Assembly (NCBI RefSeq): GCF_000170915.1
Contig: NZ_ABCT01000004.1
Coordinates: 1-64,000, forward strand
DNA: 64,000 nt
Direction: 5' to 3'
DNA from: Limnobacter sp. MED105
GTDB lineage: Bacteria; Pseudomonadota; Gammaproteobacteria; Burkholderiales; Burkholderiaceae_B
The notes beneath the pieces are model-generated. The model did not search any database and had not been told where the DNA came from. It saw only the letters and a list, made by a program, of their open reading frames with translations. A program made the translations under genes and the position numbers. This document shows positions 32,397 to 43,927 of this stretch, one piece after another. Within the stretch, counting starts at the first letter, position 1; every line of letters begins with the position of its first letter.

Positions 32397-32487
32397 GGAG
32401 ACGTGGCCGAGTGGTCGAAGGCACTCCCCTGCTAAGGGAGCATACCCCAAAAGGGTATCGGAGGTTCAAATCCTCTCGTCTCCGCCA
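32397..32487 (+). tRNA. tRNA-Ser, anticodon GCT
   Basis: A 91-base type II tRNA. The acceptor stem GGAGACG pairs perfectly with CGTCTCC, followed by discriminator G and an encoded CCA end. The anticodon stem CTCCC/GGGAG encloses the loop CTGCTAA with anticodon GCT at 32431-32433 (reads AGC/AGU). The long variable arm (ATACCCC AAAA GGGTAT) is typical of serine tRNAs, and the T arm contains GGTTCAAATCC. Confidence 0.98.
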
Positions 32488-32492
32488 GAATG

Positions 32493-32524
32493 AAAAAGGG
32501 ATCCCAATCGGGATCCCTTTTTTT
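32493..32524 (+). terminator. Bidirectional terminator after tRNA-Ser
   Basis: The stem GGGATCCC (32498-32505) / GGGATCCC (32510-32517) with loop AATC is flanked by A5 on the left and T7 on the right. It works for the tRNA on the plus strand and for the lipid kinase gene ending at 32523 on the minus strand. Confidence 0.9.
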
Positions 32525-33455
32525 ATTCCATGGCTACAAACTGCACTGCCGGGGCGCTGCTGATTCGTATTGACGACAGGGGTGCATGCACATCGCCATC
32601 GAGTTGCCAGGCTGTGGGTGAATCGAATTGAAAATCAATGCGGTGAATAGTGCTGCGTTCTACGCCCACACTGTGCGGCATCCTACCCAACCAAATTCTC
32701 AGCAAATTAACTACCAGCGCCAGTTTATTGGGTACACCCGCGATCAGGCACATGTCTTGATTGGCGAGCGGGCCGCCGCTTGTGGACACACGAAACCTCA
32801 GCGGTAAACACTGAATACTGAGCGCAAGGCAGGCCTGCCATGCGAACCCTTGTGGTGTGGCATTGTCGCGAGATTGCTGCCCCTTGACTGTGGAGAAAAG
32901 ATTTTCCACGAACTGACTGCGCCGAATAATTCCCCACGCTATTTTGGCCAACAATTTTGTGGCTGCAATTGGGCCACTACCCAGGCTGTAATACGCGTGC
33001 ATGAAATTGACAGTGACGCCGAAGCCAAACACAAAACCATATTGCTGGCCAGATGTTTTAATGGGATATCGGGGCGTGCTGTGCAGGTGAGTGCTGGCCT
33101 GATTCTCAACCAACCATTGCAGTGCTTTCAGTGGCGCAGTTTTGGGGTAGGCGTCCCAGGCAATCATGTTCATGGTGCCAGCATGCACAGGGAATATAGC
33201 TGGTATCGCATGCTCCCCCCAAACTTTGGCAGCGGCGCCCAACACTGCTGAAACGGTGCCATCGCCACCGAAAGGCACGATCACTGTGGGTGGTTTGTAC
33301 TCATAATGGCGCAAGGCATTTTCAAGTTCTTGCGTATTTTGAGTGAGCGCCACATGGCCGGAGTTGCCAAGAATTGAATGAATCCCGGCCAAGCTGGCCC
33401 CGGCGTTGTGTGTTTTCAGGTAACCCGATTTCGGATTGGCAATGACAAGAATCAC
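32523..33455 (-). CDS. Diacylglycerol/lipid kinase family protein
   Basis: 310 residues. N-terminal DAGK catalytic domain: ILVIANPKSGYLK at the start, then the nucleotide-binding VPFGGDGTVSAVLGAA and FPVHAGTMNMIAWD. The C-terminal half is the beta-sandwich usual in YegS/DgkB-type kinases. The substrate (diacylglycerol, phosphatidylglycerol or sphingoid base) cannot be told from sequence. It converges on tRNA-Ser and lies 83 bases downstream of the PAS kinase gene on the same strand. Confidence 0.85.
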   Translation of the reverse strand: MILVIANPKSGYLKTHNAGASLAGIHSILGNSGHVALTQNTQELENALRHYEYKPPTVIVPFGGDGTVSAVLGAAAKVWGEHAIPAIFPVHAGTMNMIAWDAYPKTAPLKALQWLVENQASTHLHSTPRYPIKTSGQQYGFVFGFGVTVNFMHAYYSLGSGPIAATKLLAKIAWGIIRRSQFVENLFSTVKGQQSRDNATPQGFAWQACLALSIQCLPLRFRVSTSGGPLANQDMCLIAGVPNKLALVVNLLRIWLGRMPHSVGVERSTIHRIDFQFDSPTAWQLDGDVHAPLSSIRISSAPAVQFVAME

Positions 33456-33538: not shown

Positions 33539-35779
33539 TCACGGCGTCTCCGGGGCAAATTTGGGAAAGTACAGTTCCACGCAAGTTCCTGAATTGGGTG
33601 CTGAGTGAATTTTGATGTAGCCCTTGGATTGCTTCACAAATCCAAACACCATGCTAAGTCCCAATCCACTACCCTTGCCAACTTCTTTGGTCGTGAAAAA
33701 CGGTTCGAATGCACGATTCAGGGTTTCCTGCGTCATGCCGTGCCCGGTGTCACGAACTGAAATCAAGACATATGGGCCAGCAGGCAGGGTTTCTTTGGCA
33801 TCTGTTTGTATCGAATCAAGTTCAGTATTCAATGCGCTGATGTGAAGCTTGCCGGCTTGTGGAATTGCGTCTCTACCATTGATGACCAAGTTCAGCAGTG
33901 CTACCTCCAGTTGCCCGGGGTCCACTGCAATTTTCCACAAACCGTCAGTGTCAGGCGCTTCGATTTCGATGGTTTCCGGCAGAATCCGTCGAAACAGGGC
34001 CAGAGAATCTTGAATTAGTTGCCCTGCATCAACCGTTTTGGGCTGCAGGGGTTGCCTGCGAGCAAACGACAACAGTCGACTGGTGAGTTCAGCCCCGCGT
34101 TCTGCGGCTTTGCTGGTCATTTCTGCCAGTGATTGAAGTTGTGGATTGTCTTTAAGCCTGTAGGCCAGGGTTTCAGCATTGCCCATGATTACAGTGAGCA
34201 GGTTGTTGAAGTCGTGGGCTACTCCGCCAGTCAGTTGCCCCATGGCCTCCAGCTTTTGGGATTCACGCAATTTCTCCTCCAGTTCCCGGGTTTCGGTCAG
34301 GTCCAGCATGCTGCCCAACATGCGAATGGCTTTGCCCTGTTCGTCTCGAATGACAAACCCCCGGTCGTGAACCAAAGCATACTTTCCGCTTGATTTTGCG
34401 AATCGGTATTCATTGCTCCAGTGTGTTCCCGTGCCATCGATAACCTGATGAATGCTCTCAAGAACCCGCTGACTGTCATCGGGGTGGATACGCGTCGTCC
34501 ATGATTCAGGGCCAGGTTCAAGTTGCAGCAGTTCATAGCCAAACACGCGGCTCATGGACTCGTTCCACCAAAGCCCATTTTTGATCAAGTCCCAATCCCA
34601 GATCACATCGTTGGTGGCCTTGGACACCAGCACGAATCGCTCATGCAGCAGTTTCGCGGCTTGTTGCTGGTTCTCCTCGTTGGTGACGTCACGAAAATAG
34701 ACGCCAAGTCCTTCGCTTGTCGGGTATCCATTGACTTCGAACCAGGTGTCCAGAGGCGGGTAGAAAAATTTGACCTTGATGGCATTGCCTGTATCGATGG
34801 CTTGTTGATACAGGGAATACACCGGTGTGTTGCGCGCTTCCGGGAACTCTTGCCAAATGTTTTTGCCGATCAGGTCTTCGCGTCGTCTTTTGAGCAGGTT
34901 TTCAGCCCTAGGGTTCAAGTACACAAAGTCGAATCGGGTCGAGATCATGAAAAAAGAGTCGCTCATGTTCTCGAGGGTTGAGAACAGTCGCTGTTCCAAA
35001 TCAGAGTTGCGATTCTTTTCATGTATCAGTTCGGTGATGTCCTGGAATGCACCCTGAGCGCCGATGATGTTTCCCAGAGAATCAAGCTCGGGTTCACCAA
35101 TGGCTCGGACCCAGGCGATGCGATTGGATCGTGTTTTGATTTGGAGTATTTCGTCGTAAGGTTTTCCTTCCGTGATGCATTCCGTGTAGCACTTTTCAAT
35201 TTTCTGGCGGTAGGCGGGCAGGTAGTACGAAAAGGCTTCCTCTGCGCTGGGCGCAGGCTCGTAAGGGGCGTCGTGGATGGCGGCAGTTTGGGGAGTCCAT
35301 GACACGTGGTCACTGCCAAGGCTCATCCTCCAGCCGCCCAGTTTTGCTTTGGTACCAGCGATATCAATCAATTTTTTTGCACGGTCCAGGTTGGCCAGGG
35401 TTTCGTGGGTATCGGTGACATCATTGATGGTCGCCAACACTTGTATTTTTTGATTCAGGGCGCAGCGTTGCCAGTGGAAACGGGCTTTGAATGATTTGCT
35501 TGTTTTGCTTTGAAGGGTCCATTGCGATGTAAATGTGGTTTCGTTTTGAAACGCAATCAAAGCAGCGCGCAGGGCCTGGTGGTCTGAAGGGGGGCGAAGA
35601 TCGAGAATTGTTTTGCTCTGCAATTCGGCAGCACTTATTTCCAGCCACTCTTCGCAGGCAGGGTTGTTCCATATGATGCGCAAGGTTTCCGGATCAAATA
35701 TCCAGATGGGTTGTGGCAGTGCTGACAAGGCTTGCAGTGCATTCTCTTCCAGTAAAAGGGGATTGTTGTCCATTTTCAT
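33539..35779 (-). CDS. Multi-PAS sensor histidine kinase without receiver domain
   Basis: About 746 residues, no transmembrane segment. Four PAS/PAC units in order (about 12-125, 135-255, 260-370, 380-505), then HisKA with phospho-acceptor His522 (GGVAHDFNNLLTVI), and a HATPase_c domain whose G boxes read DTGHGM and GSGLGLSMVFGF. The HDFNNLL type usually belongs to hybrid kinases with a C-terminal receiver. This one stops right after the ATPase domain, and a receiver of the matching type is encoded separately across the divergent gap (36159-36596). The ATG at 35779 is chosen; a GTG at 35809 lacks a ribosome site. Confidence 0.88.
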   Translation of the reverse strand: MKMDNNPLLLEENALQALSALPQPIWIFDPETLRIIWNNPACEEWLEISAAELQSKTILDLRPPSDHQALRAALIAFQNETTFTSQWTLQSKTSKSFKARFHWQRCALNQKIQVLATINDVTDTHETLANLDRAKKLIDIAGTKAKLGGWRMSLGSDHVSWTPQTAAIHDAPYEPAPSAEEAFSYYLPAYRQKIEKCYTECITEGKPYDEILQIKTRSNRIAWVRAIGEPELDSLGNIIGAQGAFQDITELIHEKNRNSDLEQRLFSTLENMSDSFFMISTRFDFVYLNPRAENLLKRRREDLIGKNIWQEFPEARNTPVYSLYQQAIDTGNAIKVKFFYPPLDTWFEVNGYPTSEGLGVYFRDVTNEENQQQAAKLLHERFVLVSKATNDVIWDWDLIKNGLWWNESMSRVFGYELLQLEPGPESWTTRIHPDDSQRVLESIHQVIDGTGTHWSNEYRFAKSSGKYALVHDRGFVIRDEQGKAIRMLGSMLDLTETRELEEKLRESQKLEAMGQLTGGVAHDFNNLLTVIMGNAETLAYRLKDNPQLQSLAEMTSKAAERGAELTSRLLSFARRQPLQPKTVDAGQLIQDSLALFRRILPETIEIEAPDTDGLWKIAVDPGQLEVALLNLVINGRDAIPQAGKLHISALNTELDSIQTDAKETLPAGPYVLISVRDTGHGMTQETLNRAFEPFFTTKEVGKGSGLGLSMVFGFVKQSKGYIKIHSAPNSGTCVELYFPKFAPETP

Positions 35780-35904
35780 ATCGCCGATTTTGAATGGTTC
35801 AGGGTGCACTCAATTGAGTAGGGGGGGCTTAAACGCTGGTTCAGGTGCGGCTCTTTCAATAAAATAATGGTCAGCGCCTAACAGGCAGTCAAGGGGTAAT
35901 TGGC

Positions 35905-36162
35905 ATGGTGACGGATGGAACGGGCAGCGGGGATCAAGGTGAGCAAGTGAATCAGTTGCTTTCTCAGTACGTACACAAACTAAACAACACCATGCTGCCG
36001 TTTGTGCTTGAGCTGGACGATTTGCTTGGAAAAATGAATGAGCACTCACGATTGGATCAACTCAAGCTACAGCGGTTTGACACGGAGTGCAGGGCACAAC
36101 TGGAAATAATCCAGCGAATTCGTAGTCTGATTTCTTGTACGTCAGAGTCTGACTTTGAATGA
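35905..36162 (+). CDS. Small DHp-like (histidine phosphotransfer-type) protein
   Basis: 85 residues, no recognised full-length family. The sequence QYVHKLNNTMLPFVLELDDLL (about residues 21-41) resembles the HxxNN box of HisKA helices (the neighbouring kinase has AHDFNNLLTVI), with His24 in the phospho-acceptor position. A second amphipathic helix (FDTECRAQLEIIQRIRSLI) follows after a short linker, as in a two-helix DHp domain. There is no ATPase domain. Its stop overlaps the receiver gene start (ATGA), so the two are probably coupled. The phosphotransfer role is inferred; it could be an unrelated helical protein. Confidence 0.6.
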   Translation: MVTDGTGSGDQGEQVNQLLSQYVHKLNNTMLPFVLELDDLLGKMNEHSRLDQLKLQRFDTECRAQLEIIQRIRSLISCTSESDFE

Positions 36163-36596
36163 GCCAAACAAGGACGGAGAGCGGTGCAGCCATGGACAAT
36201 AATTCGACCAATCAAGGTGCTGCCGTTTGTAGTGCCAAACACATTTTGTTGGTGGAGGACGATGCCATGGTTCGCGAGCATGTGGAGTGCTTGCTGGAAG
36301 ACCTGGGTTACAAGGTGACCTCGGCGCACAATGCTCGAGAGTGTTTGCGTGTAATTTCTGACCTTGATCGCGTCGATTTGCTGTTCTCCGACATAGTCAT
36401 GCCCGGTGGCATGTCTGGTACCCAGTTGGCCCGTGAAATCCGTCAAATGTACCCGGGTTTGCCCATTCTTTTGACCTCGGGCTATGCCGAGGATGTGATC
36501 AGTGGCCTTGATTCCATCGATGCTCGCCTAGCTTTGCTTCGAAAACCTTATCGCCGTACTGACTTGTGCCGTGCATTGCAGGCCATGCTGGGATAA
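36159..36596 (+). CDS. Stand-alone response regulator receiver protein
   Basis: 145 residues. After about 26 variable residues comes one receiver domain: acidic pocket LVEDDAMV, phospho-acceptor Asp in LLFSDIVMPGGMSG, Thr/Ser and Lys switch residues in LLTSGYAED and LLRKPYRRTDL. FSDIVMPGGMSG and RKPYRR are typical of receivers fused to the C-terminus of HDFNNLL-type hybrid kinases, so this looks like a detached kinase receiver. No output domain. The start at 36159 overlaps the upstream gene; an ATG at 36192 has GGAGAG upstream and is an alternative. Confidence 0.85.
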   Translation: MSQTRTESGAAMDNNSTNQGAAVCSAKHILLVEDDAMVREHVECLLEDLGYKVTSAHNARECLRVISDLDRVDLLFSDIVMPGGMSGTQLAREIRQMYPGLPILLTSGYAEDVISGLDSIDARLALLRKPYRRTDLCRALQAMLG

Positions 36597-36609
36597 TCAT
36601 GGTGCTTGT

Positions 36610-37998
36610 TTAGTGCCGCTCGGCCAGTGCTTTTGGCTTCATGATGTAAATTTTCATGGGATGACCAATTACCTTTTCGCCATCACGGAATTTGGTGATC
36701 ATTCTGCCGTTGACCACCTGGTCTTTGGCGCCCCACAGGTATCCATCCGGGCCCGTGAAATCACGTGTAAGTACTGCGCCGATTTTCAGTGTCTTGGCGC
36801 TTACCATTTGTTCATGCTCAAGCGGTGTGCTGCCGTATTCTTCCAGTGCGGACGGCAATGCCCGGATGACCTCGGGGTCGTACCGTCGGCCCGAGGCATT
36901 GCTGACGAATCGAGCGGCATCCTTGGCGGATAATTTTTGATCTGCCAGCCAACCCTGTTGCAGTTCATCGTAATCTTCAGCCACAGCGAGTATGCGTGCT
37001 CCAATGTGTATGCTTGCGCCGATGAGGCCGTCCGGGAATCCTTGACCATCATAGCGTTCGTGATGGTGGCGAATGATCGTGCTGACTTCCCCCATGTCGG
37101 GCAGGCTTAAAAACACGGTTTGGGCGCGCACTGGGTGTTTGAGCAAGCTGGCTTGCGCTTCGCCGTCAAGGCTTGCAAAGGGGGTGAACAGGGTTCGGTC
37201 TGGCAAACCTATTTTGCCAATGTCGTGTAGCAAGGCTGCAATGTAAATTTCCTGAACCTCGCTTTCATCAAGACCAAGTTGTTGCGCAAGAATTCGTGAA
37301 AGGTCGGCAACACGCCGTGAATGTGCAGCCAAGGCAGGGGAGCGTAAATCCAGAAAGTTGCAGAACACGCGAATCGCGCTGAGGTATTGCAGCTTGATGT
37401 CTTTACGGGACTGGTCCAGCAGTGAATTAACCTGCTTGATTTCATCCATGCGTTCGTCAACTCTGGTGTTGAGCTCTTGTTGAAAGTTTTCAAGTTCATA
37501 AACCTTCTCGGCCAGGCTTTGGTTCATTTGCTCGGTTTCAAGCCGAATTTGAAACACTTCGATCAGTTCCGCTACGGCATGACGCAAGGTGTCGTCCTTG
37601 CAGGGTTTGCTTAAAAACCGGTCGACTTGTCCCAGGTTGATGGCGTCAATTGAGGAGTTAAGGTCTGCATGGCCTGTGAGAATGATTTTCCCGACGTGGG
37701 GTGCAAATTCGGAAATAGCTTGCAGCACGTCTACGCCGCTTAAATCGGGCATGCGCATATCACAGATCACCACGGACGGTTTTTCCCTGCGAGTGAGTGC
37801 AATCGCCTCTCGTGGGTTGGTCGTGAAAAGAATGTCGTAAGGCTCAAGGCTGAATACTTTGCGTAGTGAATTGATGACGTTGGAGTCGTCATCCACAAAC
37901 AGGATTTTGTGCTTGGAGGGTTTGTTCCGGTTAAGGCTTCCCGTGAATCCGTGGATTAATGGGCTGCTCTCTTTGTCGAGGGTGTCTTCAGTGTGCAT
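36610..37998 (-). CDS. Receiver / HD-GYP-type phosphodiesterase response regulator (copy 1, GFP variant)
   Basis: 462 residues. N-terminal receiver (about 30-145; FVDDD, Asp80 in VICDMRMPDLSG, Lys131 in LSKPC), a coiled coil at about 150-200, then an HD-GYP-type domain (about 205-375) with LLHDIGKIG (His258/Asp259) and HHHERYDGQGFPDG. The signature tripeptide is GFP, not GYP, and the usual VAD.YDA reads VAEDYDE. A C-terminal extension (about 385-460) contains RDFTGPDGYLW. HD-GYP domains hydrolyse cyclic di-GMP; the changes make activity uncertain. Paralogue of the next gene, which lies 20 bases upstream on the same strand. Confidence 0.88.
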   Translation of the reverse strand: MHTEDTLDKESSPLIHGFTGSLNRNKPSKHKILFVDDDSNVINSLRKVFSLEPYDILFTTNPREAIALTRREKPSVVICDMRMPDLSGVDVLQAISEFAPHVGKIILTGHADLNSSIDAINLGQVDRFLSKPCKDDTLRHAVAELIEVFQIRLETEQMNQSLAEKVYELENFQQELNTRVDERMDEIKQVNSLLDQSRKDIKLQYLSAIRVFCNFLDLRSPALAAHSRRVADLSRILAQQLGLDESEVQEIYIAALLHDIGKIGLPDRTLFTPFASLDGEAQASLLKHPVRAQTVFLSLPDMGEVSTIIRHHHERYDGQGFPDGLIGASIHIGARILAVAEDYDELQQGWLADQKLSAKDAARFVSNASGRRYDPEVIRALPSALEEYGSTPLEHEQMVSAKTLKIGAVLTRDFTGPDGYLWGAKDQVVNGRMITKFRDGEKVIGHPMKIYIMKPKALAERH

Positions 37999-38018
37999 GG
38001 TGTGTTCCGCGGGGTGCC

Positions 38019-39434
38019 TTACCGGCCAGATCGCTTGAGGCGATATACATAGACTTTTTGCGATTTGCCATGTGTGGCTTCGTATTCTTTGACCTGATCA
38101 ATAAAGTGTTTGCTCACCAGTTTTTCTTTGGATAGCCACAAGTATCCGTCAGGGCCAATGAAGTCGCGTGACAGTGTTTGACCCACCATCAATTCGCTGC
38201 CCGACAGAAGGCGCTCTTCAAGTCGTGGGGCGGCCCGGAGTTTTTCCAGTGCAGGTGGTAACGCTTGCAGCACTTGTGGGTCGTAGCGGCTTTCGCCAGA
38301 TTTCATGACAAATGACAGCGCCTCGTCTTCAGAAAGCTTTTTGGGCGCGAGCCAGCCTTGTTGCAATTCATCGTAGTCTTCTGCAACGGCCAGAATGCGC
38401 GACCCAATTGGAATCACCTGATTCAAAATCCCGTCCGGGTAACCCTCGCCATCGAAACGCTCATGATGGTGCCGAATCATGGTGGCGATTGTTTCCATGT
38501 CGGCCAAGCCTGCAAATACGGCCTGACCTTTGGTGCAGTGGGTCATCAGTTCAGTGCGCAGTTCCTTGCCCAGGCTACCAACAGGCATGAAAAGAGCTTC
38601 ATCGGACAGACCGATTTTTCCAACATCATGCAGCAAACCAGCGATATACACTTCGTTCACATAGTTTGGATCGCAGCCAAGTTCAATTGCGATAAGGCGG
38701 GCCAGTTCAGCCACCCGTTTGCTGTGTGCGCCCAGTTGAGGAGAGCGCAGCTCAGTGAGACCAGAAAATACTTTGATCGCACTGAAGTACTGGGCTTTTT
38801 GTTCCCTGCGGGACATGTCCAGGAACAGCTTGGCTTGTTCAAACTCTCGAATGCGTTCACTGATGCAATGTTCAAGCGAGCTGTTGAGCAATTCAAGTTC
38901 GGCCGCTCTGTTATTCAACTCGCGTGCAGCCTTGATTCGCTCCAGCTTGACACGGGCCAGCCCCACCAGCTCGGACAGGGTAAGTTGAAGCATTTCAGCG
39001 TCAAGGGGTTTGCACAGGTAGCGATTCACGTGGCCGCGGTTGATGGAGGAAACCACGGTGTCCAGTTCGCTGAATCCGGTCAACATGACCCGGGCGGAGT
39101 CAGGTGAAATTTGATGAATGGCTTCAAATACCTCAACGCCCGACAATTCAGGCATTCGTATATCGCAAATAACCACGCCCGGTTTGTGGTGTTTGGCCAG
39201 TGATACGCCTTCCCGGGCGTCCAGCGAGGTGAGTACAGTGAGGTTTAACTTGCGCAGTTCTTTGCGCAGGGCCATGAGTACATCGGGGTCGTCGTCGATT
39301 AGCAAAACTACGTCAGGACTCAAATCTTTGCTTGCATAGCTCGACTCCGACAGCAGATTGGCTGGCGAGTCTGCCTGGTTTGCAGTGTCAGGTTCCGGCC
39401 CGGATGTGTTTTCGGCGAGGCTGGCGGAGATCAT
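38019..39434 (-). CDS. Receiver / HD-GYP phosphodiesterase response regulator (copy 2)
   Basis: 471 residues, same architecture as its downstream paralogue: receiver (about 40-155; LIDDDPDV, Asp91 in VICDIRMPELSG, Lys142), coiled coil, HD-GYP domain with LLHDVGKIG (His269/Asp270) and HHHERFDGEGYPDG, where the GYP is intact, and a C-terminal RDFIGPDGYLW domain. The VAEDYDE change is shared with copy 1, and the usual HP of the middle motif reads HC (THCTKGQAVF). Likely a cyclic di-GMP phosphodiesterase activated by phosphorylation. First gene of a two-gene operon. Confidence 0.9.
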   Translation of the reverse strand: MISASLAENTSGPEPDTANQADSPANLLSESSYASKDLSPDVVLLIDDDPDVLMALRKELRKLNLTVLTSLDAREGVSLAKHHKPGVVICDIRMPELSGVEVFEAIHQISPDSARVMLTGFSELDTVVSSINRGHVNRYLCKPLDAEMLQLTLSELVGLARVKLERIKAARELNNRAAELELLNSSLEHCISERIREFEQAKLFLDMSRREQKAQYFSAIKVFSGLTELRSPQLGAHSKRVAELARLIAIELGCDPNYVNEVYIAGLLHDVGKIGLSDEALFMPVGSLGKELRTELMTHCTKGQAVFAGLADMETIATMIRHHHERFDGEGYPDGILNQVIPIGSRILAVAEDYDELQQGWLAPKKLSEDEALSFVMKSGESRYDPQVLQALPPALEKLRAAPRLEERLLSGSELMVGQTLSRDFIGPDGYLWLSKEKLVSKHFIDQVKEYEATHGKSQKVYVYRLKRSGR

Positions 39435-39618: not shown

Positions 39619-41028
39619 TTGAAAGGGTACCTGTCTCTGTTATTGCTCAGTCCAAAGGTAAGCTTGGTTTATTCAAAATTACGAGTTTTTAGTTCCGCGC
39701 AAGTGCAAATCCGTCAAAGCCGTCCGTATTGGCTACTGGCCTTTGGTTGCGCGATGGTGCTTGCCTTGTTGGGCATCACTTACACCCATTCCCGAATGAA
39801 TGCTGAGGTGGTGGCGATGTCTGAGCTCAATCAAAAACGCATCGATCGCCTCGACCAATTGTGGGTGTTGTTGGTTGATGCGCAAGCCAGTGCCCTGTCT
39901 TTTTTGCTGATGCGCAACGACGCGTACCTCGAGCCTTACCGAAGTACAGCGACGCGACTGGAGCCGCTCATGGCATCCATGAACTTTGATATTCCGCCTG
40001 ATTCGGATGATTATGCCGATTTGCAAGACTTGAAGCGTTTGGTGGATGCAAAGTTTCAGTACCTCGGTGAGATGTTGAGCCGGGGTGGTGCTCCCTTGGT
40101 TTTGTCGGTAGAGCATGGTGAACTTGGGAAACAGTTGATGGATGAAATCCGGGTTCGCTTGGCGATACTGAAAGCCAGAAGGGAGAAGGTTCATCAGGAT
40201 TTTGAGAATATGTATTTGGCGCGTGCCAAGAAAATTCAGTACGTGGGATATGCCTTGGGTGTCGCGTCGCTATTGTTGATACTTGGCCTGTTTGTGGTGC
40301 AACAGAGGCAGGTGGCCTTGCGTGCAAGAATTCAGGAGTTGTTGAAAACAGAAAACAGCCGGCTTGAAGCCAAGGTGCAAGCGCGCACGCTTGAGTTGAG
40401 CAATTTGGCCACCAACCTGACCACCGCCCAAGAGGCGGAGCGCCAGCACATAGCCAGGGAGTTGCACGACGAAATGGGTTCGGCATTGACTGCTGCGAAA
40501 ATGGATGCGGGCTGGTTGCGCCGATCTTTGGGTACGCAGGTCGATGAACTTGTTCAGGAGCGAATGCTTCGTTTGATTGAAAACATTGGAAGCACTATTT
40601 CAATGACGCGTCGTTTGGTTGATGACCTGCAACCCCCTTTGCTCAAGGGTTTGGGGCTGGTTGAGGCGCTTCGTTCACTGGGGCAGCAGTTTGAAATGGA
40701 CATGTCTGTGGTGATGGACTTTCCCGAGCATGAGTTGAGTTTGTCGCCTGAACAATCGTTGGCCTTGTTTCGGGTGGCCCAGGAGTCGTTGACGAATGTT
40801 CGGAAATACGCCAAGGCCAGCAAGGTGGAGTTGAGCCTGAAGGAGAAGCAGGGCATGGTAATTCTGAGCGTGGCTGATAACGGCAGTGGCTTTAACACAG
40901 AAAACATTGAGCTGCATGGCCATGGCATTGCCGGCATGAAACACCGTGCTCAGATGTTTAACGCCAATTTATTGCTTGATTCACAAGCTGGACGCGGCAC
41001 ACGCATTGAAGTGCGAATGCCTGTTTGA
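39619..41028 (+). CDS. NarX/DegS-type sensor histidine kinase with CHASE3-like sensor
   Basis: Up to 469 residues. Two transmembrane helices (about 37-56 and 209-228) flank a roughly 150-residue helical extracytoplasmic domain resembling CHASE3. Then a coiled coil, a HisKA_3 dimerisation domain with His283 (QHIARELHDEMGSALTAAK) and HATPase_c (VADNGSGFN, GHGIAGMKHRAQ). HisKA_3 kinases pair with NarL/LuxR-type regulators, and one is convergent 15 bases downstream. The start is uncertain: TTG 39619 has a poorly spaced GGGAG, while TTG 39664 has AAAGG six bases upstream and would remove 15 residues. Confidence 0.85.
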   Translation: MKGYLSLLLLSPKVSLVYSKLRVFSSAQVQIRQSRPYWLLAFGCAMVLALLGITYTHSRMNAEVVAMSELNQKRIDRLDQLWVLLVDAQASALSFLLMRNDAYLEPYRSTATRLEPLMASMNFDIPPDSDDYADLQDLKRLVDAKFQYLGEMLSRGGAPLVLSVEHGELGKQLMDEIRVRLAILKARREKVHQDFENMYLARAKKIQYVGYALGVASLLLILGLFVVQQRQVALRARIQELLKTENSRLEAKVQARTLELSNLATNLTTAQEAERQHIARELHDEMGSALTAAKMDAGWLRRSLGTQVDELVQERMLRLIENIGSTISMTRRLVDDLQPPLLKGLGLVEALRSLGQQFEMDMSVVMDFPEHELSLSPEQSLALFRVAQESLTNVRKYAKASKVELSLKEKQGMVILSVADNGSGFNTENIELHGHGIAGMKHRAQMFNANLLLDSQAGRGTRIEVRMPV

Positions 41029-41043
41029 TTTTGAACAGGTGGT

Positions 41044-41679
41044 TTAGTCGAGCAGCAAGCCGTGCTGGTGTGCGTAGGTGGCCAGTTCTGCGTTGCTGTT
41101 CACGCCAAGCTTATCCAGTAACCTTGATCGATAGGTGCTCACTGTTTTTACGCTCAAGTGAAGCACCTGCGCTATAGCTGACACACTTTCGCCCCTCACC
41201 AAGCGCATGAACACTTGCCTTTCACGTTCAGACAGTTCCTGATGCGCTGGTTTGTCGCTTTCGCCGGTCATTTCGCGGGCCAACAGTTCTGCTGTGTTGG
41301 CCGAGATATAACGTCGACCCTGCGCCACCGTATGGATAGCGTTGACAAGGTCGCTGCGGTCGCAGTCTTTGCAAAGGTATCCGCTGGCACCACTTCGGAT
41401 CATTGGCAAAGCATAGCGTTCTTCTGAAAAACTGCTGATGACCAAGACCTGCGTCTTCTCATGTCGTTGTTTAACGGCGCGCAACAAGTCAATACCGTTT
41501 TCGTCAGGCAATGACAGGTCAAGCATCAAAACATCGCAGTTGTGCTCTCGCAGCAGGCTTCTGGCCTCTTGCGCGGTACCCGCTTCGAACTGAATACACA
41601 TGCCCAGTTCTTCATTGAGCATTTCACGAAAGCCAGCACGCACAATTGCATGATCATCAACAATCGCCAATCGAATCAT
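41044..41679 (-). CDS. NarL/LuxR-family response regulator
   Basis: 211 residues. Receiver with VDDHAIVRAG, Asp54 in LMLDLSLPDENG and Lys in YLCKDC; C-terminal LuxR helix-turn-helix (LSERERQVFMRLVRGESVSAIAQVLHLSVKTVSTYRSRLLDKL). Presumed partner of the convergent HisKA_3 kinase. Targets unknown; the nearest promoters are its own and that of the BON gene in the shared 185-base gap. Confidence 0.92.
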   Translation of the reverse strand: MIRLAIVDDHAIVRAGFREMLNEELGMCIQFEAGTAQEARSLLREHNCDVLMLDLSLPDENGIDLLRAVKQRHEKTQVLVISSFSEERYALPMIRSGASGYLCKDCDRSDLVNAIHTVAQGRRYISANTAELLAREMTGESDKPAHQELSERERQVFMRLVRGESVSAIAQVLHLSVKTVSTYRSRLLDKLGVNSNAELATYAHQHGLLLD

Positions 41680-41864
41680 TTGAATAGTCCTCGTGTTGTG
41701 GTCCGTTGGGGAAGCCAGACTGGTCCTACAAACGAATCGTCCTTGTCGGACAGATCAATGGTTTGCCCCGCCGTAGTATTGAACGCATGAAGCCTGATCA
41801 ATACATACCTTTGATCTTGATTTCTTGTCAGTAGTCAGTTCAATAACCTTGAAGGAGTACAACC

Positions 41865-42197
41865 ATGAAAAAATTGATCACTCAAACCTTGATCGCCTCT
41901 GGTGTTGCGTTGTCTGCGTTGAGCCCTGTGTATGCAGCAGAGCAGGGTAAAGAACCATTGAAGGCCGTGGGGCAATATGTGGACGACGCCACCATTACCA
42001 CCAAGGTAAAGGCCAAGCATGCGGAAGACAAAACCGTAAGTGCCTTGCGTGTGAATGTAGAAACCAAGCAAGGTGTGGTGGTGTTGTCGGGTGAAGCCAG
42101 AACCGAGGCTGAACTTGAGCGCGCCGAGGCGTTGGCCAAACAGGTGGAAGGTGTGAAAGCTGTTTCCAATATGATCGAGTTGAAGCCCAAGTCGTAA
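41865..42197 (+). CDS. BON-domain periplasmic protein (OsmY-like, single domain)
   Basis: 110 residues. A Sec signal peptide is cut after about residue 24 (SPVYA|AEQ). One BON domain fills the rest (VDDATITTKVKAKHAEDKTVSALRVNVETKQGVVVLSGEA...EGVKAVSNMIEL). BON proteins associate with phospholipid and are often stress-induced (OsmY). AAGGAG precedes the ATG. The location between two response-regulator genes suggests regulation by the local two-component system; this is inference. Confidence 0.9.
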   Translation: MKKLITQTLIASGVALSALSPVYAAEQGKEPLKAVGQYVDDATITTKVKAKHAEDKTVSALRVNVETKQGVVVLSGEARTEAELERAEALAKQVEGVKAVSNMIELKPKS

Positions 42198-42240
42198 GCT
42201 TGGCGATAGAGCCAACGGATTGAGCCGACCTTAACTCAAT

Positions 42241-42267
42241 GCCCTGCTGGCTTTGCGCCAGTGGGGC
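42241..42267 (+). terminator. Strong hairpin between the BON gene and the receiver gene
   Basis: GCCCTGCTGGC (42241-42251) pairs along all eleven positions with GCCAGTGGGGC (42257-42267), with two G-T wobbles and a five-base loop. Only GTTG follows, so there is no good U tract. It ends 16 bases before the receiver gene, so it may be an attenuator or mRNA stabiliser instead of a terminator. Confidence 0.45.
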
Positions 42268-42283
42268 GTTGTAGGTGCCCGCC

Positions 42284-42715
42284 ATGAAAAAGAATTGTAC
42301 AAACCAATTGCAAGTGCCATTGCGTGTGTTGCTAGTAGAGGACTCGATTGAATTGCAGGCGATGCTTCAATCCATGTTGAGCGAAATTCCCAGTGTTGAA
42401 GTGGTCGCCAGTGTGGAGTCTGAGGAAGATGCAGTGGCTTTCATGAGAGTGGACCCTACAGATTTGGCGATCGTTGACTTGGAATTGCGGTCTGGCACGG
42501 GCTTGGGCGTGCTGAAAAAACTGCAGGATGATCTGGATTTGACCGACAGACAGATTGGTGTTGTCGTTTTTTCCAACTATTCAAATTTGGTGATTCGACA
42601 CCGTTGTTTGAGTCTTGGGGCGAGGGCCTTCTTCGACAAGTCGTTTCAAATTGATGAATTGCTTGAGTTTGTTCAGAAACAAGCCTCGGGCAACGCCAAA
42701 GGCTCGTTACTCTGA
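42284..42715 (+). CDS. Stand-alone receiver-domain protein
   Basis: 143 residues with a single receiver: LLVEDSIEL, phospho-acceptor Asp in LAIVDLELRSGTG, and FSNYSN and FFDKSFQIDELLEF in the switch positions. There is no DNA-binding or enzymatic domain, so it probably works by protein contact or as a phosphate sink. The start ATG 42284 follows TAGGTG; a GTG nine bases earlier is possible. It may be cotranscribed with the BON gene across the hairpin. Confidence 0.85.
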   Translation: MKKNCTNQLQVPLRVLLVEDSIELQAMLQSMLSEIPSVEVVASVESEEDAVAFMRVDPTDLAIVDLELRSGTGLGVLKKLQDDLDLTDRQIGVVVFSNYSNLVIRHRCLSLGARAFFDKSFQIDELLEFVQKQASGNAKGSLL

Positions 42716-42728
42716 ACATCCAACCGTT

Positions 42729-43871
42729 TTAAATCGCCTGTGCAGGACCAAAAAACTCGAAATGCTGACGCTCGGCAGGCACACCCAGCTTGCCCAGCAT
42801 GTTCTTTACTGCACTCATAAAACCAACTGGACCCAAAAAGTAAACCTGTGCATTGTTGGGCAGGTTTTTCTCAATGGTTTGGTGTTTAATCAAACCATCC
42901 TGATTCTCATAAATGTACTCGGCTGTGATGTTGCTGTGCTGGGTACTTAATTGCTCGGTCAGGTTTTTGAAAGAGTGTTGCGCGGCATTTTTGCAGGCGT
43001 GGATGAACCGCACCTCGCGTTGGCCTGCTGCTGCTTTCAGCATTGCAATGGCCGGGGTCAACCCAACGCCGGCGGTGATCAGCACCAAGGGGTCTTTGCT
43101 GTCATCGAGAACAAACTCACCGCAGGGTGGGCTTAGCTGTACTGTGTCCCCCACAGCCAGTTGCTTGTGCAGGTGGTTGGATACCACGCCGCCTTCTTCG
43201 CGCTTGACCGAAATTCGATAATGTTGCCCGTTGGGTGCGTCTGAGAGTGAGTAGTTGCGCATCACAGTTGCGCCATTTACATTCAGGTGCAGGGTAATGT
43301 ATTGCCCCGGTTTGAAAGTCATAATCTGTTTACCATCCAAAGGTTTCAGATAAAAAGATGTGACCAGTTCGCTTTCTTGCTCTTTCGCGGCAATTGTGAA
43401 AGCACGTTGCCCCTCCCACCCTCCGGTGGACATGGCTTGTTTGGCATACAGGTTTGCTTCGGCGTTGATCAAAATATCGGCGAGCTGGCCATAGGCGGCT
43501 GCCCAGGCGTCGATAATTTCAGGTGTGGCTGCGGCGCCCAGCACCTCTTTCATGGCCTGTAGTAGGCATTCGCCCACAATAGGGTAGTGTTCGGCTTTGA
43601 CCCCCAGGGCTACATGCTTGTTGACGATCAGTGTGACCGCACCCATGAGTACTGCCGGGTTGTCAATGTGTTTGGCGTAGGCCAGCACGGCATTGGCCAG
43701 GGCGCGAGGTTGAGTGCCTTTTTCCTGATGAGCCGGATTAAAAAAGGTAGCCGTAACCGGGTATTTGCTGAACATCAGTTTGTAGAAGTGTGTCGTCAAT
43801 GCTTCGCCACCCTGTTCGAGTGCGGGAATGGTTGCCTTGATCCAATGTTTTTGCTCGGTGCTGACTGACAT
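42729..43871 (-). CDS. hmp: Flavohemoprotein (nitric oxide dioxygenase)
   Basis: About 380 residues. N-terminal globin (about 1-140, proximal His within NKHVALGVKAEHYPIVGE), then a ferredoxin-reductase-like FAD domain (YSLSDAPNG, FKPGQYITLHL) and an NAD domain (ITAGVGLTPAIAMLKAA, YFLGPVGFM). It converts NO to nitrate with O2 and NAD(P)H. The ATG at 43871 is chosen because AGGAAGGAAAAAGC precedes it; the frame extends 12 codons upstream. It is divergent from norR, which should activate it. Confidence 0.95.
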   Translation of the reverse strand: MSVSTEQKHWIKATIPALEQGGEALTTHFYKLMFSKYPVTATFFNPAHQEKGTQPRALANAVLAYAKHIDNPAVLMGAVTLIVNKHVALGVKAEHYPIVGECLLQAMKEVLGAAATPEIIDAWAAAYGQLADILINAEANLYAKQAMSTGGWEGQRAFTIAAKEQESELVTSFYLKPLDGKQIMTFKPGQYITLHLNVNGATVMRNYSLSDAPNGQHYRISVKREEGGVVSNHLHKQLAVGDTVQLSPPCGEFVLDDSKDPLVLITAGVGLTPAIAMLKAAAGQREVRFIHACKNAAQHSFKNLTEQLSTQHSNITAEYIYENQDGLIKHQTIEKNLPNNAQVYFLGPVGFMSAVKNMLGKLGVPAERQHFEFFGPAQAI

Positions 43872-43927
43872 GCTTTTTCCTTCCTGATCGATTGTAAATT
43901 TGTACATGCTTCACAGTGACAAACACT

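Follow-up and report, generated by a model that had tools for sequence, protein, structure and literature searches.

A DHp-only protein beside paired REC-HD-GYP genes in Limnobacter: a candidate histidine phosphocarrier in a putative c-di-GMP signalling cassette

The first 64,000 nucleotides of contig NZ_ABCT01000004.1 of Limnobacter sp. MED105 (the window; its genome, G000, is one of the 16 Limnobacter genomes compared here) hold at 33539..39434 a block of five genes: a PAS histidine kinase, an 85-residue protein resembling the dimerisation and phospho-acceptor (DHp) part of such a kinase, a lone receiver (REC) and two REC-HD-GYP proteins, HD1 and HD2. The block is best read as a cyclic di-GMP (c-di-GMP) signalling cassette, and we favour, tentatively and at a little short of an even chance, the view that the 85-residue protein is a dimeric, DHp-only histidine phosphocarrier between the receiver, which is of the CckA type, and the HD-GYP regulators. 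On this proposal the PAS kinase would phosphorylate the lone receiver, the receiver would transfer the phosphate to His24 of the 85-residue protein, and His24 would exchange it with the receivers of HD1 and HD2, the output being the c-di-GMP phosphodiesterase activity of the two HD-GYP proteins; Asn28, at position H+4, would probably also let the 85-residue protein drain phosphate from these receivers.

The 85-residue protein (35905-36162, plus strand) has a phospho-acceptor box that reads H24-K-L-N-N at its start (H24-K25-x-N27-N28-x-M-L-P32 in the family; 35974-36000) and two predicted helices, at residues 8-46 and 48-76; it ends nine residues past the second, and no degenerate ATPase-like domain follows. 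Nothing in Pfam or NCBIfam matches it at E<=1, and nothing in Pfam does so even at E<=10. The module occurs in four of the 16 genomes (G000, G010, G006 and G004), in two of them as a stand-alone protein: ahead of the lone receiver in the window's genome, and after a 1543-residue REC-HK...PAS-PAS-GAF-HK-REC protein (HK, histidine kinase) in G010. In G006 it forms the C-terminus of a 486-residue REC-HK-DHp protein, followed by an overlapping gene for a 770-residue hybrid kinase, and in G004 the C-terminus of a 248-residue REC-DHp protein in a block with no kinase.

The three relatives are 38-46% identical to the window's protein, and the four-member alignment has 19 invariant positions, including V23, H24, K25, N27, N28, M30, L31, P32, V34, E36, L37 and D38; 13 of the 19 lie within one 19-column stretch around the histidine, a clustering reached by 2 of 20000 shuffles. 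His24, Lys25, Asn27, Asn28 and Pro32 are the same in all four members, and the conservation of His24 in orthologues, by which the initial annotation (made from the bare sequence) had proposed to check its DHp assignment, therefore holds in every member found. Most of the module's invariant residues are encoded by more than one codon among the members, with synonymous changes at all of these five positions but Asn27, and differences are in excess at the third codon position in all six pairs of members (41/26/52 by codon position for the window against G010). Because it has three relatives, a third-position bias and clustered invariant columns, the 85-residue frame looks like a selected protein, more than chance and not debris; Lys25 likewise looks to have been kept by selection, since it is invariant in all four with synonymous codon changes.

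These same data bear on the idea that the 85-residue frame and the lone receiver are functionless remnants of two deleted hybrid kinases. G006 does have more complete versions, REC-HK-DHp and HK-REC, at this site, and each of the window's two genes matches the C-terminal end of one of them. Set against this are the codon differences, with their third-position excess in every pair and synonymous changes at invariant residues, the motifs intact in both genes, the ATGA by which the genes overlap (noted in the initial annotation and borne out by the frame coordinates, 35905-36162 and 36159-36596) and the second stand-alone form, in G010, with different neighbours; we consider debris quite improbable.

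The search of the family took in 268 genomes with a single-sequence query and gave 12 matches at E<=0.1, of which four are real. A profile query of 399 genomes of the order gave eight matches at E<=0.05, with G000 among them, and 369 genomes of the class gave two at E<=0.01, G000 itself and G871; no relatives of the module were found in plasmids and phages by tblastn. On translation, none of the other family matches (L005, L006, L008-L013) proved to be an HKxNN module, nor did L122, L126 and L127 from the order, L170 from the class or L007, L133, L135 and L137 from the genus; L122 has a kinase-like HDMKNSM box. The order matches L121 and L123-L125 have stop codons within the matched stretches, further weak genus matches in G012, G015 and G004 are unrelated to the module, and PriC, DUF4404 and three other Pfam matches (E 0.02-0.08), each in one member only, were put down to chance.

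By its profile the 85-residue protein looks DHp-derived. At E<=10 the four-member profile finds a single other match in the genome of the window, the DHp of a hybrid kinase (in a 1547-residue frame, with the box AHDINNAISP; E 0.054), and DHps of the same type match in G001, G014 and G004 at E 0.17-1.25. Compared by hhalign with five HDINNAISP-type DHps, the module aligns at a probability of 82 over 58 gapless columns with His on His, NN on NN and Pro on Pro, placing His24 on the phospho-acceptor histidine; the score is 32.3, where 200 column shuffles reached 21.1 at most and a reversed control 13.1, and a coiled-coil control and the window kinase's own HDFNNLL DHp reached probabilities of 0.8 and 0.7. 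Direct homology of the module to the window kinase's DHp was thus not found, although a comparison of the HDINNAISP with the HDFNNLL profile gives 95.8; the DHp piece resembles a different type from that of the kinase from which the initial annotation had derived it. Membership of the histidine phosphotransfer (HPt) family was likewise rejected, there being no match to the Hpt model (PF01627). A two-helix hairpin fold is likely, though its structural support is weak; the DHp-like character first proposed is supported by the profile and the invariant histidine, and the hairpin itself is predicted with modest confidence.

The residues beside His24 suggest what such a protein might do. Where HisKA has an acid at H+1, all four members have Lys25, and where it has Asn or Thr at H+4, all four have Asn28. 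In CrdS and three other HisKA kinases, according to passages of PMC3510030, kinase activity depends on the acid at H+1, which phosphatase activity can do without, and phosphatase activity depends on the Asn or Thr at H+4. Because its H+1 residue is lysine, the 85-residue protein should be unable to autophosphorylate, and its Asn at H+4 predicts that phosphatase chemistry is retained. The module is joined to one signalling protein or another while the HD-GYP pair beside it stays the same, which suggests that it passes phosphate on or removes it, being unable to load itself from ATP. A basic residue at H+1 would be compatible with a carrier, since PhyT, an HRxxN DHp with a degenerate ATPase, is described in part of PMC5898713 as acting as a phosphotransferase. 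Carriage is also favoured by the fusion of the module behind REC-HK in G006 and behind a receiver in G004. An HPt domain often sits at the C-terminus, where the G006 module sits behind REC-HK.

The same residues could instead belong to a dedicated receiver phosphatase, with Asn28 dephosphorylating the lone receiver, the HD-GYP receivers or both and His24 not needed as a carrier; the kinase would then bring phosphate in and the 85-residue protein would remove it. A non-acidic H+1 with Asn at H+4 is the kinase-minus, phosphatase-plus pattern found in the relevant part of PMC3510030, Lys25 and Asn28 are both invariant, and in a split kinase of Rhodobacter the free, P1-bearing CheA3 is the main phosphatase (passages of PMC3591291). 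However, His24 is just as invariant, although the histidine mattered little for the phosphatase activity of CrdS (PMC3510030, in part), and the adjoining receiver resembles intermediary receivers, which suggests exchange over output. We hold a dedicated phosphatase to be unlikely, if worth serious weight. Another possibility is that the hairpin, in the manner of a microprotein, heterodimerises with the DHp of a full kinase, tuning or blocking it and taking no phosphate. A bare DHp would offer a dimerisation surface, and PDB entry 7n0e is, by its title, a complex of the RetS kinase region with the GacS DHp; but the invariant residues are clustered around His24 and not spread over the bundle, and the module shares one polypeptide with REC-HK in G006 and with REC in G004; such a partner role appears improbable.

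Beyond the receiver lie two further genes of the block, HD1 (36610-37998, minus strand, 462 residues, convergent with the receiver gene) and HD2 (38019-39434, minus strand, 471 residues), which the initial annotation missed in confining the set to three genes. Both have Response_reg and HD_5 domains above cut-off, with the sequences HHERYDGQGFPDG and HHERFDGEGYPDG, and they are the likely output. HD1 has orthologues in G004, G006 and G010 at 77-82%, the next best in the genus being at 44-49%, and there is no further match at E<=1e-125 in the 268 family genomes (six candidates scored per genome); the genomes with a close HD1 orthologue are thus the same four that have the DHp module (4/268), and HD2 orthologues adjoin HD1 in G004, G006 and G010. 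Across these four carriers, the constant parts are the DHp module and the HD-GYP pair only. Two details of the pair may be recorded here. In HD1, which reads HHERYDGQGFPDG, the Tyr of the GYP motif is replaced by Phe, whereas HD2 has GYP; and the HD1 orthologue of G004 (L096:7150-8532) is interrupted by an in-frame stop about 292 residues in, beside an intact HD2, so that the output pair of G004 may be down to one.

The putative source of phosphate, the PAS kinase (33539-35809, minus strand, 756 residues), has PAS repeats, a HisKA domain with AHDFNNLL (523-586), a HATPase_c domain (630-750) and a CckA-like core, with no receiver. The initial annotation had it stopping after the ATPase domain, and the Pfam map agrees: the protein ends six residues past the HATPase_c match. 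Its relatives number at least 583, and in 79 of the best 80 (many of them close Pseudomonas sequences) a receiver follows the ATPase directly, as judged with a receiver model based on eight sequences from the window and its relatives; 69 of these 79 have HDFNNLL, in keeping with the earlier statement that kinases with this box normally end in a receiver. The one receiver-less protein among the 80 is a Limnobacter orthologue (L014; NZ_LUJK01000031.1, Limnobacter sp. CACIAM 66H1), whose coordinates coincide with those on contig C31 of G006. Among the 16 Limnobacter genomes this kinase type occurs in G000 and G006 only (E<=1e-60), and the G006 orthologue, of 938 residues, likewise lacks a receiver. 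The receiver-less state is therefore unusual in this kinase family and common to both Limnobacter genomes that have the kinase.

The lone receiver (36159-36596, plus strand, 145 residues; Pfam Response_reg) shows EDD, FSDIVMP, LTSGYAED and RKPYRR. The receiver part of the NCBIfam CckA model aligns to it at 2.3e-23 and 82 bits (the full-length cut-off is 1000), and its LTSGY has Leu in place of the Phe of FxSGY, the motif that CckA receivers carry according to part of PMC9981736. The initial annotation had called its features those of a kinase-attached receiver, which is right as to KPY (73 of the 79 attached receivers above) and the CckA type; RKPYRR and MPGGMSG, in exactly these forms, are the less common variants (24 of these receivers have KPYRR, three have MPGGMSG). 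At E<=1e-18 its only other match in the 16 genomes is the C-terminal REC of the 770-residue G006 hybrid kinase, at 67% identity; over the receiver core it is 69% identical to that REC, against 47-48% to the four best-scoring of the 79. In a tree with 30 of the 79, it groups with the G006 REC at 100/100. A first tree had also held the very divergent second receiver of G010, a single very long row, and in it the two were not sisters; the tree used omits that row. Since its sister in that tree ends the 770-residue G006 hybrid, which coexists with the receiver-less 938-residue kinase, the lone receiver appears to be the end piece of another hybrid kinase and not of the window's own.

This bears directly on the initial annotation's central claim, that one hybrid kinase had been split into three cooperating genes. 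The kinase does lack the receiver that 79 of its best 80 relatives have, and a receiver of that class stands next door. But the sister of that receiver ends a different kinase, coexisting with the receiver-less one in G006 (the window kinase's HK core is 80% identical to the 938-residue kinase and 49% to the 770-residue hybrid), and the DHp-like piece, which ends yet a third G006 protein, the one of 486 residues, is of the HDINNAISP and not the HDFNNLL type, while the kinase retains a DHp of its own. A three-way split of one gene is very unlikely indeed.

The trees give no consistent polarity for these changes: those of HD1 and HD2 conflict and are weakly supported, and lysC pairs G004 with G010, G000 with G009 and G006 with G005. 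We lean to loss over gain, because G006 has REC-HK parts in common with G010 (45-47%), and G004 has a REC of that type as well (50% to G006). In G010 the 1543-residue fusion (L094:7047-11678) has two complete kinase cores where G006 has two separate proteins, and the second of its DHps belongs to the HDINNAISP type, which the adjoining stand-alone module resembles.

In the clade of the window all five genes are either there or missing as a set. The block lies between a DAGK-domain gene (32523-33455) and a CHASE3-HisKA_3 kinase gene (39619-41028), and in G005, G001 and G014 (the three genomes sampled for an empty site, chosen since the DAGK gene stands beside lysC there) the DAGK-domain gene is followed directly by the CHASE3-HisKA_3 orthologue, with 0/5 block genes between. 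In G010 the block is on contig C10 and lysC on C2. In the window a tRNA-Ser (GCT; 32397-32487) separates lysC from the DAGK-domain gene, and it recurs in G004 (L096:6276-6366), where the DAGK gene is absent and the REC-DHp gene starts 31 bases past the tRNA-Ser that follows lysC; this tRNA gene is a possible recombination point. The kinase and the DHp-like gene diverge across a 95-bp gap (35810..35904), around which promoter-like sites are no commoner than in shuffles, and a terminator scan of the block region gave no excess over shuffles either. Right after the block (39619-43907) come the CHASE3-HisKA_3 kinase, a LuxR-type response regulator, a second stand-alone receiver and a flavohaemoglobin-like gene with globin, FAD and NAD domains, a small signalling cluster conserved in G005, G001 and G014; in G006 (L095:12572-12795) the first three of these (window 39619-42715) were not found between HD2 and the flavohaemoglobin-like gene.

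Several observations weigh against the phosphocarrier reading, some of them touching the DHp assignment and others the relay. Only four module members are known, all in one genus. The HDINNAISP set was picked on account of its match to the module profile, and three of the five sequences in it hardly differ; the match leans on helix 1 (the C-terminal half alone has a probability of 1.5) and on the G004 member: single members give 16.2, 14.7, 4.7 and 85.0, and the profile without G004 falls to 42.8, with a score of 25.6 (82-84 when any one of the others is left out instead). No Pfam HisKA-type model is among the matches of the four members at E<=10. The AlphaFold2 model, from two sequences, has its helices at 8-46 and 48-76 with modest scores (pLDDT 71, pTM 0.33) and no PDB match by Foldseek, and a PDB sequence search with the module profile gave two matches at chance level (best E 0.36); the kinase's own DHp, run as a control at the same alignment depth, gave helices at 2-46 and 50-79, a pLDDT of 83.5 and kinase structures first by Foldseek (best E 0.014, none under 0.001).

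As to the relay, G004 has both a block free of kinases and the in-frame stop in HD1, and the window's kinase and receiver types are limited to G000 and G006. The window's genome has seven Pfam Hpt matches elsewhere, none on contig C43, and these could take part in a relay. Lysine at H+1 with asparagine at H+4 is as compatible with a phosphatase as with a carrier, and as ChpT has an added C-terminal domain (passages of PMC3433190), carriage by a bare DHp is less precedented.

HisKA proteins without HATPase and DHp-derived phosphotransferases with a second domain are both already known, the former numbering 1556 of 42417 in the relevant part of PMC3591291. Among the open PMC literature matches listed, most subscription papers falling outside this scope, there is no report of a bare HKxNN DHp-only protein or of such Limnobacter kinases. 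It is possible, if rather doubtful, that a bare 85-residue DHp hairpin, kinase-dead by its conserved H+1 lysine, replaces HPt as the carrier in a c-di-GMP phosphorelay, the module staying by the HD-GYP pair while kinase parts are lost, fused and reshuffled, so that a hybrid kinase would have been reduced to its smallest phosphotransfer unit. If so, a DHp hairpin alone could be the minimum unit for histidine-aspartate phosphotransfer, and one conserved residue beside the histidine would switch off the kinase role and leave a carrier or phosphatase role in place. Four architectures in one genus, an environmental one, together with the empty sites in close relatives, form a natural series on how multi-step relays evolve from hybrid kinases, and it is a series of small soluble proteins.

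Among known systems, the split histidine kinases resemble the module in having the DHp part on a protein without an ATPase; candidate bifunctional split kinases have HE/DxxN/T in the part of PMC3591291 concerned, whereas the module has HKxNN in all four members, and the kinase adjoining it is complete and not ATPase-only. ChpT has a C-terminal atypical Bergerat-fold domain (PMC3433190, in part) and PhyT a degenerate ATPase and HRxxN (PMC5898713, in part); the 85-residue protein, in contrast, has no second domain and has Lys at H+1. Like ChpT, Spo0B and PhyT, the module would be a kinase-derived DHp hairpin taking phosphate from one receiver and giving it to another. ChpT and Spo0B have Asp at H+1. 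The donor to ChpT is the CckA receiver, and the window's receiver is also CckA-type, although it stands alone and has Leu in place of the Phe of FxSGY, unlike the receiver of a CckA-type hybrid. The proposed wiring, from kinase to receiver to His24 to the HD-GYP receivers, resembles CckA-ChpT, and that of Spo0F-Spo0B is comparable. In RpfC/RpfG, a sensor kinase, a receiver and a His carrier likewise act on a REC-HD-GYP regulator; the Limnobacter module differs in being a DHp-like hairpin instead of an HPt domain, in having a gene of its own and in standing beside two HD-GYP proteins.

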